Below, piece by piece: positions 32,256 through 33,931 of a DNA stretch of 64,000 nt. Within the stretch, counting starts at the first letter, position 1. Each line of letters starts with the position of its first letter. Under the pieces are notes generated by a model. It had not been told where the DNA came from, made no database searches, and saw nothing but the letters and a program-made list of their open reading frames with translations. The DNA comes from Cytophagales bacterium (GTDB lineage: Bacteria > Bacteroidota > Bacteroidia > Cytophagales > Cyclobacteriaceae), in contig JAFLBQ010000004.1 in NCBI GenBank assembly GCA_017303805.1, positions 62,001 to 126,000 on the forward strand, in the 5' to 3' direction. The position numbers and the translations under genes were made by a program.

Positions 32256-33368
32256 ATGGAAAATTTTGTGGTTTCAGCTCGTAAGTATCGCCCGCTTGGC
32301 TTCGAAGAAGTGGTGGGCCAGGAGCACATTACAACCACCCTAAAAAATGCCATCGACACCAACAAACTGGCGCAGGCTTTATTGTTTTGTGGCCCGCGGG
32401 GCGTTGGCAAAACAACGTGTGCGCGCATTGTAGCCCGTTTGATTAACGGGTTCGAAGAAAAAGCCGAGATTAACTCGCTCAATATTTTTGAATTGGATGC
32501 GGCCTCGAACAACTCGGTAGAAGACATTCGCAGTTTAATTGACCAGGTGCGCTACCCACCACAATTTGGCAAATTTAAGGTGTATATTATTGACGAGGTG
32601 CACATGCTTTCAACCTCGGCATTCAATGCTTTTTTGAAAACGCTGGAAGAGCCCCCGCCTTATGCGGTGTTTATTCTGGCAACTACCGAAAAGCACAAAG
32701 TGTTGCCTACCATCTTATCGCGGTGTCAGATCTTTGACTTTAATCGCATTCAGGTTTCGGATATTACCCGGCAATTAAAAAAAGTTGCCGACCGTGAAAA
32801 TGTGAAAGCCGAAGAAGAAGCCTTGCACCTGATTGCCCAAAAAGCAGATGGTGCCTTGCGCGATGCGCTCTCTATTTTCGACTTGATGGTTACGTTTGCT
32901 GCTGGCCAAGCAGTTACTTTTAAGAGTGTACTGGCAAACCTGCACATTCTGGACCATGAGTATTACTTTAAAATTGTGGACGGCCTGCTTGGCGAAAATC
33001 ACTCGCAACCTCTTGTGTTATTTGACGAAATTCTGAAAAAGGGTTTTGACGGCCATAATTTTATTGCCGGCCTAAGTGACCACCTGCGCAACTTGCTGGT
33101 AGCACAAGATGCCCGCACCGTTTCCCTAATGCAAGTGCCGGAAAGCACTCAAAAAAAATACCTGGAGCAGGCGGCTCAGGCAACTCCGTCTCTTTTGCTT
33201 TCGTGGCTTAACCTGGCCAGCCAGTGCGACATCCAGTACAAGAGCAGCAAAAACCAACGCTTGTTGGTTGAGTTGGCCCTTATGAAAATGGCCCATGTAA
33301 ATGCCGTATTGAAAACCAATGGTGCTGCTCCCATACAGGAGGGCTTAAAAAAAAAAATGAATCCGTAG
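32256..33368 (+). CDS. dnaX: DNA polymerase III subunit gamma (zero-frame product of dnaX)
   Basis: The clamp-loader ATPase of the replisome. ATG 32256 gives the family start MENFVVSARKYRPLGFEEVVGQ. The P-loop is GPRGVGKTTCAR, Walker B is YIIDEVHMLS, and the SRC sensor motif is LSRCQIFDF. The four-Cys zinc module of proteobacterial DnaX is absent (the segment after LIN runs straight into the NIFELDAASNN core); from memory this is usual in Bacteroidota. The collar domain continues to about residue 360. The zero frame then crosses an A11 run and stops at TAG 33366 after KKKMNP, giving a 370-residue gamma-like protein. The tau tail is intact in the -1 frame. Confidence 0.93.
   Translation: MENFVVSARKYRPLGFEEVVGQEHITTTLKNAIDTNKLAQALLFCGPRGVGKTTCARIVARLINGFEEKAEINSLNIFELDAASNNSVEDIRSLIDQVRYPPQFGKFKVYIIDEVHMLSTSAFNAFLKTLEEPPPYAVFILATTEKHKVLPTILSRCQIFDFNRIQVSDITRQLKKVADRENVKAEEEALHLIAQKADGALRDALSIFDLMVTFAAGQAVTFKSVLANLHILDHEYYFKIVDGLLGENHSQPLVLFDEILKKGFDGHNFIAGLSDHLRNLLVAQDARTVSLMQVPESTQKKYLEQAAQATPSLLLSWLNLASQCDIQYKSSKNQRLLVELALMKMAHVNAVLKTNGAAPIQEGLKKKMNP
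33337..33357 (+). other. Predicted programmed frameshift or slippage site in dnaX
   Basis: Eleven A bases (33347-33357) follow AGGAGG (33337-33342) inside the coding sequence. The zero frame ends nine bases further on, while the -1 frame (equal to one extra A in the mRNA) continues into the tau-specific tail. In Escherichia coli dnaX a Shine-Dalgarno-like element upstream of A-AAA-AAG stimulates -1 frameshifting. In Thermus dnaX an A-run causes transcriptional slippage. Either mechanism fits here. A missed A in sequencing is the alternative. Confidence 0.65.
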
Positions 33369-33931
33369 TTGCTCCGGCTATCGAATCCAATGCCGCGCCC
33401 GCATCTTCCCAAGCAATTGAAACCGTAAACCTGGTAGCCACGGTAGTCAATGAACCTATTATAAAAACAACTACCGAACGAAGACCTCGCACAACTCTTA
33501 ACCTGAATGCGCTATTAAAAGGCAAGCCAGCCGAAGAGGTAAAAACAGAAACACCTTCCGTAAAAAAAGAAGACCAGCCATATACCGAAGCAGCGTTGGT
33601 TACTGCCTGGAACCGCTTTGCTGAAACGCGCAAAACGCAGGTGGCAGAGTACCATTTACTCAAACAGCCCTTTACTCTCGACAATAACATTATTACGCTT
33701 ACGCTAACTAACCCTGTAGAAGAGCCGTTGTTGAATTCTATTAAGGCTGACCTGCTTACGTACTTGCGCAACACGCTTGGCAACAGCCTTATCCAATTGA
33801 ATTATATTTTCGCACAACAAGAAAGCAGGCGTATGGCCTACACTAACAAAGAAAAGTTTGAAGCCTTGGCTGAAAAGAATCCGTTGCTTAAAACATTTCA
33901 GGAAAAATTTGGGCTCGATCCGGATTTTTAA
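33359..33931 (+). CDS. dnaX: DNA polymerase III subunit tau, C-terminal tail in the -1 frame of dnaX
   Basis: An open frame of 190 residues, with no start codon at its beginning, continues dnaX after the A11 run. It starts ESVVAPAIESNAAP (a flexible, Ala/Pro/Thr-rich linker of about 75 residues). A folded domain follows that holds LVTAWNRFAETRKTQ and ends TNKEKFEALAEKNPLLKTF, as is typical of Bacteroidota DnaX C-termini. Joined to the ATPase by a -1 shift, it makes a tau of about 558 residues. Codon use and conservation-like pattern do not suggest decay, so this is not a simple pseudogene. An internal ATG lies only near the end. Confidence 0.8.
   Translation, partial: ESVVAPAIESNAAPASSQAIETVNLVATVVNEPIIKTTTERRPRTTLNLNALLKGKPAEEVKTETPSVKKEDQPYTEAALVTAWNRFAETRKTQVAEYHLLKQPFTLDNNIITLTLTNPVEEPLLNSIKADLLTYLRNTLGNSLIQLNYIFAQQESRRMAYTNKEKFEALAEKNPLLKTFQEKFGLDPDF

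Follow-up and report, generated by a model that had tools for sequence, protein, structure and literature searches.

Tau, one of the products of dnaX, is the organiser of the replisome. The ways in which a single dnaX gene is described to yield both tau and the shorter gamma differ among bacteria. In Thermus thermophilus, RNA polymerase is reported to slip on a run of nine A (PMC1088944), and stops lie near in both of the frames that do not encode tau (PMC5009743). The Escherichia coli site is A_AAA_AAG, accompanied by a Shine-Dalgarno (SD) element and a stem-loop, and gamma is the shifted product (PMC3711429, PMC5009743). A type in which gamma and tau occupy two ORFs was found in the GeneTack survey of Antonov et al. 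(2013), which in the passages cited here lists 17 such genes from 12 genera, 12 of them with poly-A, nine of those with 10 A, and proposes transcriptional realignment (PMC3711429); a 2016 review repeats the type (PMC5009743). For the ribosome itself, cell-free work with E. coli describes robust sliding on three lysines coded by A11, and little at A9 or A10 (PMC4363877).

The split type has been known since 2013, and the gene described here is a further case of it. The window, a stretch of 64,000 nucleotides, comes from a Cytophagales bacterium with a genome of 4.29 Mb in 13 contigs. Its dnaX has the following features, of which the hexamer, the run and the two stops are read directly from the sequence:

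32256 to 33368, + strand: dnaX zero-frame ORF, gamma-like, 370 aa, start ATG at 32256; Pfam and PRK14971 matches
33337 to 33342, + strand: AGGAGG, SD-like, coding for part of Gln-Glu-Gly; probably no conserved stimulator
33347 to 33357, + strand: slippery run of 11 A between gamma and tau; of 334 distinct dnaX loci, 270 have 9-11 A here
33358 to 33360, + strand: TGA, closing the +1 frame directly behind the run; third-frame closure is enriched among relatives
33359 to 33931, + strand: C-terminal part of tau, 190 aa in the -1 frame, comprising linker and tau domain; PRK14971 positions 457-612 and codon-position pattern
33366 to 33368, + strand: TAG, closing the zero frame, end of gamma

The hexamer is followed by GCTT, the 11 A and then TGAATCCGTAG, so that the zero-frame codons over the run read TTA AAA AAA AAA ATG AAT CCG TAG; the -1 frame ends with TAA at 33929-33931. 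The ORF called by program for gamma starts upstream, at TTG 32247. A preliminary description of the window had stated that the zero frame stops just past the A11 to give a gamma of 370 residues, and that the -1 frame runs uninterrupted from 33359 to 33931 and carries the tau C-terminus. The stop at 33366 confirms the former, and the PRK14971 match and the coding constraint described below confirm the latter. The further statement that tau can be reached only through a shift or slippage at the run is supported for the gene as templated.

The two pieces of dnaX and their relatives

On the NCBIfam gamma/tau model PRK14971 (614 positions) the two pieces are collinear, the gamma piece matching positions 1-365 and the -1 piece positions 457-612 (E 3.3e-20). 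Each piece alone stays below the whole-protein cut-off of this model, while the gamma piece clears that of TIGR02397 (dnaX_nterm) and contains the Pfam domains DNA_pol3_delta2, DNAX_ATPase_lid and DNA_pol3_gamma3; a Pfam search of the tau piece gave no match. Compared with the close relative L005, the -1 frame differs at 41, 33 and 104 sites at codon positions 1, 2 and 3 respectively (dN 0.21, dS saturated). Because the differences concentrate at codon position 3, the tau piece is, on this substitution pattern, genuine coding sequence constrained in the -1 frame. In the named set, the best 80 of 594 matches, which may omit close records, the nearest dnaX is that of a Cesiribacteraceae bacterium (65% identity); an uncultured Cytophagales bacterium comes next and then a Dyadobacter.

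A further observation concerns another part of the protein. Between Walker A and the DAAS motif of DnaX lies a cysteine-rich stretch (window 32418-32500), which we take to be a zinc module. It is down to one or no Cys in 171 of the 320 loci scored and retains at least four in 149; reduction is seen in all 50 loci of the window's genus and in 77 of 85 from the rest of the family. From the distribution of these sequences, the stretch is a case of repeated loss.

The split itself is shared with relatives. A search of 58 genomes of the genus, including the window's own, gave matches in 54 and 50 classified loci, four genomes being left out for want of a match and four because their matches were only partial. 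Tau is at -1 in 46 of these 50 loci (44 with A10, 2 with A11), in frame in 2 and at +1 in 1, and in 1 no tau was found. Of 85 loci in the rest of the family, tau lies at -1 in 64 (a run of 8 A is missing from one), in frame in 17 and at +1 in 2; 1 locus is odd (L213) and 1 has no tau. Alignment of close relatives across the run, a check suggested in the preliminary description, shows the split to be common to the 46 genus loci. That description had also pointed out that a single missed A in the assembly would restore one frame. The relatives speak otherwise: those with A10 share the frame relation, and the window differs from them by a T-to-A change beside the run and no indel, so that it keeps their frame relation with A11. 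With tau at -1 after A10 or A11 in 46 of the 50 loci classified from the genus, an assembly slip is very unlikely, and we rejected it as the cause of the split.

The same counts (46 of 50 in the genus, 64 of 85 in the rest of the family) bear on the broader idea that the window gene yields gamma only, tau having been lost through decay or sequencing error. One indel in the run would give a single frame, and near-identical pairs that differ by one A do exist, of which single ones could be errors. Against this stand the shared split, the constraint on tau in the -1 frame and a search of the window's own genome that found no second dnaX-like gene at E 1e-60, and we give the idea hardly any credence.

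Runs of this kind are not peculiar to dnaX. The window's genome has 18 A10 hits, which collapse to 14 runs of at least 10 A on both strands; besides the dnaX run, three lie in sense orientation inside ORFs of at least 100 aa and a fourth overlaps an ORF end, so the run alone is not remarkable, but its conservation is. At the three sense A10 runs (L292, L293 and L294, each around base 2001) no frame break was seen by eye. One of these long ORFs appears by eye to encode a histidine kinase and overlaps the start of a response regulator.

The A run and its flanks across Bacteroidota

We classified 335 dnaX loci, 334 with distinct gammas after removal of one duplicate, from the same genus, the same family, the same class, other classes of the phylum, 80 named Bacteroidota (the best 80 of 594 matches) and one Bacteroidales family. 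A run of at least 8 A separates the gamma core from tau in 272 of the 334 distinct loci, a fraction that is not a census value, the family and phylum loci having been picked by hand among the matches listed, mostly one per genus. By group, the run is present in 50 of 50 loci of the genus, 84 of 85 in the rest of the family, 26 of 28 in the order and class, 68 of 80 named, 23 of 42 in other classes and 21 of 49 in the Bacteroidales family. The preliminary description had taken the gamma/tau arrangement to be lineage-specific, a view that does not survive the wider sample: the run and the -1 type occur in many Bacteroidota lineages.

Run length is narrowly distributed among the 272 carriers, with 9 A in 33, 10 in 222 and 11 in 15; 13 A occurs once, as does 8 A, in a run that has an N beside it. 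Tau is in frame in 96 carriers (8 A in 1, 9 in 19, 10 in 68, 11 in 8), at -1 in 163 (9 A in 10, 10 in 146, 11 in 7) and at +1 in 7; in 5 no tau was found, and the remaining one, L213, is typed as a stop followed by the same frame, yet carries A10. The run occurs in all three codon phases, its length narrowly held in each, so what is conserved is not one set peptide or one set heptamer. Elsewhere in these genes, 34% of the Lys codons are AAG, and Lys-Lys-Lys stretches are all-AAA in just 3 of 61. The existence of 96 carriers in which gamma and tau form one ORF also bears on the suggestion that an internal start allows the tau C-terminus to be translated on its own. The -1 ORF of the window does overlap gamma and has a TTG at 33596, but a continuous ORF in so many run-carrying relatives fits the suggestion poorly, and we think it highly improbable.

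The run is not needed everywhere, since 62 of the 334 loci are without it. Among these are 36 in-frame loci (16 in other classes, 10 in the Bacteroidales family, 8 named and 2 in the order and class), as well as the minus-one loci L203 and L350, which have no run of 8 A. One Bacteroidales dnaX without an A run (L093, near 3650) has tau at +1, with a zero-frame TAA after GGGAGTGC; this arrangement could be an assembly error or another type of shift.

For loci with a run, we counted the codons from the run to the first stop in each of the two non-tau frames and compared them with synonymous redraws of the same gene, leaving out 9 of the 272 carriers (no tau, a tau frame too short, or L213). A stop falls within 10 codons in both non-tau frames of 88 of the 96 in-frame loci (null mean 36.3, maximum 49 in 300 draws) and of 160 of the 162 minus-one loci (null mean 64.5, maximum 83). 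In the minus-one type the zero-frame stop is present by definition, so the third frame is the informative one, and it is closed in 160 of 162 loci (null 128.3, maximum 139). At control positions 90 and 150 bases downstream, both frames are closed in 24-25%. After thinning to below 75% gamma identity, both frames are closed in 39 of 41 in-frame loci (null 16.7) and 22 of 24 minus-one loci (null 8.5), and the third frame of the latter in 22 of 24 (null 16.2; 1 of 1000 draws as high). Thinning to below 65% leaves 13 of 13 in-frame loci closed (null 5.4), while the third frame of the minus-one type, closed in 10 of 10, is not significant with ten loci (188 of 1000 draws reach it). As a negative control, in-frame loci without a run, measured at the median run position, are closed in 8 of 36 cases (null 5.7; 128 of 1000 draws as high), no clear excess; the thinned control leans the same way as the run carriers (7 of 22, null 4.3; 66 of 1000).

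These data can be set against a programmed -1 ribosomal frameshift at the run (A AAA AAA), aided by AGGAGG and acting on a homogeneous mRNA. The A11 contains several A_AAA_AAA heptamers, the hexamer lies 4 bases upstream, and a Chlorobium candidate of the same type with E. coli-like signals is mentioned as unpublished in the part of the 2016 review cited (PMC5009743). However, such a shift would need just 7 A, whereas the conserved length is 9-11; the run does not differ between the in-frame and -1 types; and the third frame is closed too, although a -1 shift needs only one stop.

Exact AGGAGG within 17 bases of the run occurs in only 8 of the 272 carriers (the window, L004-L009 and one Bacteroidales locus, L344), and two of these, L007 and L009, have tau in frame, so that no -1 shift is needed for tau despite the hexamer. 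SD-like hexamers do precede the run in 22 of 46 genus loci; three control windows taken from these genes have them in 0-2 of 46. Redrawing the codons of these residues synonymously gives as much, however (null 18.1, P = 0.068; P = 0.06-0.63 in the four other groups), and five-base SD cores behave alike (P = 0.08-0.75 across all five groups). Because of this, the SD-like excess is, by the recoding test, explained by the encoded residues. The AGGAGG, which the preliminary description had likened to the stimulator of E. coli, is accordingly probably not a conserved stimulator. The same description had seen no strong stem-loop downstream, which holds for the window, where folding gives z of 0.08 to 0.54 against shuffles, and an Rfam search of 33100-33700 found no family at gathering score. 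In the set as a whole, downstream folding is slightly stronger than in control stretches: the mean z is -0.68 for the minus-one type (100 of 163 loci drawn; controls -0.06 and -0.46) and -0.66 for the in-frame type (controls -0.24 and -0.39). A strong downstream stem-loop was rejected on these z-scores. With the SD element rare, SD-likeness within its synonymous null and no strong stem-loop, we consider a programmed -1 frameshift an unlikely account of the window.

Changes of tau phase and an in-frame TAG

The phase of tau has changed repeatedly. On a FastTree tree of the gamma proteins, run carriers change between in-frame and out-of-frame tau at least 30 times, compared with 72-78 changes for shuffled labels (five of 20 draws); the two in-frame genus loci, L007 and L009, count as one change. 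There are 53 disjoint pairs of at least 70% identity that differ in phase, although these are not independent. Among them are L158/L159 (A11/A10) and L280/L283 (A9/A10), each with 99% gamma identity and a differing tau frame, and both are good natural pairs for experiment. Compared with L006 (96% identity), L007 has lost one A and one T at the edge of the run. Single phase-differing cases could be assembly errors, but we do not think that the whole pattern is.

A different arrangement is found in one Bacteroidales family, in which 79 of 81 genomes matched and 50 loci were read, and in L108, L117 and L132. Together these give 16 distinct loci at which the gamma/tau border has an in-frame TAG and no A run, and tau continues onward in the same frame, for example:

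L108, 3599 to 3601: in-frame TAG at the dnaX gamma/tau border, within conserved TAGATWGCNAGR; no A run

The other 15 are L117, L132, L304-L308, L310, L312, L314, L316, L318, L321, L324 and L325. In the motif TAGATnGCnAG every position except the two n is invariant in all 16, and the linker beyond it is hard to align. Elsewhere in this family the border either lacks a run or has one of A9-A11, with tau at -1 or in frame. TAG is not a general sense codon in these genomes: rpoB gave a match in 7 of 8 of them, and none of these seven frames, 1272-1280 codons long, is interrupted by a stop, while TAG itself terminates 2 of the 17 tau ORFs of this type (one genome being counted twice). The in-frame TAG at the dnaX border is a candidate site of programmed readthrough. 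Downstream of it RNAalifold gave no consensus structure, and a hairpin of 4 pairs drawn by hand there is paired in 70% of cells, with no covariation. When the TAG motif was searched for as a pattern across the class, 2 of 395 genomes gave hits; in tblastn, gamma and tau of the window matched neither of the two stretches.

Probable slippage at the A run, and comparison with known systems

We think it probable that the A run is a slippage cassette, on which RNA polymerase slips to provide for both gamma and tau. In the window, the polymerase would slip on the A11 and produce mRNAs with a varying number of A. An mRNA as templated, or with one A fewer, would meet a stop within a few codons and give gamma, while one with one A more, or two fewer, would join the frames and give tau, of about 558 aa. 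If slippage spreads the mRNAs over all three frames in this way, the template frame of tau should hardly matter, so that its phase could drift in evolution while the run of 9-11 A and the quick stops in the other two frames persist. From the run and its flanks we infer that it is the polymerase rather than the ribosome that slips, and that both proteins are made in some ratio. Transcriptional slippage as in Thermus, already named as an option in the preliminary description, comes out as the best reading of the window.

The main rival with the same signature is sliding of the ribosome in both directions on the poly-A of a homogeneous mRNA, again giving gamma and tau. The cell-free work describes E. 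coli ribosomes that slide robustly at A11 and exit in several frames (PMC4363877), and sliding would likewise select for stops in both other frames. These are also the points that speak against the polymerase: the double closure fits either machine, and the A11 of the window has just the length on which E. coli ribosomes slide. In that work, however, little product is obtained at A9 or A10 (PMC4363877), the lengths of 255 of the 272 runs here. Because runs of A9-A10 are weak for sliding by the E. coli ribosome, their prevalence speaks for the polymerase. Ribosome sliding is therefore improbable as the general explanation, though the A11 of the window may leave room for a ribosomal share.

For Bacteroidota as a whole, we lean towards a picture in which dnaX carries a phase-indifferent slippage cassette, consisting of 9-11 A and stops in both non-tau frames. 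Tau would move in and out of frame while both products are kept, and one Bacteroidales clade would have swapped the run for an in-frame TAG, as if for programmed readthrough. If tau exists only through slippage in many species, then an error is a fixed part of the expression of this gene. The phase changes amount to a natural experiment, in which near-identical genes in different frames allow the slippage ratio to be measured, and they hint at how recoding can emerge and be maintained with no need of fine-tuning. In some lineages a run seems to preserve the short form, and in another perhaps a TAG does so, which bears on the dispute over whether gamma is necessary. On the practical side, gene callers that treat such dnaX genes as broken will misannotate them.

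In E. coli, gamma and tau come from a single dnaX with an A-rich site, the arrangement proposed for the window, which has an SD-like hexamer upstream of its run. However, the run of the window is pure A followed by T, without an A_AAA_AAG heptamer; there is no strong stem, the SD element is rarely kept among relatives, and the shifted product is tau.

The two-ORF genes of the GeneTack survey, as far as the cited passages describe them, are of the same type as the window, with gamma and tau in two ORFs, a -1 frameshift at the DNA level and a poly-A junction. The window has the zero-frame stop after gamma, tau at -1, a junction of poly-A and conservation of all this in relatives; its run is A11, whereas the nine of the survey are 10 A. 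Those passages deal with split genes only and make no mention of in-frame run genes, phase changes or closure of the third frame (PMC3711429). In the parts of the open-licence literature consulted we found no account of dnaX phase drift or of in-frame Bacteroidota run genes, which is weak evidence of absence. The phase indifference appears to be new, as does the Bacteroidales clade whose gamma/tau border carries an in-frame TAG.

In Thermus the gamma/tau border is likewise poly-A, with at least 9 A, as in the A11 of the window; both non-tau frames stop soon past the run (TGA 33358 and TAG 33366 in the window), and two products are expected. Slippage is reported for Thermus and would be the corresponding step in the window. 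The remaining difference lies in the template, where the zero frame encodes tau in Thermus and gamma in the window, and in this respect it is the 96 run-carrying relatives with tau in frame that match Thermus.
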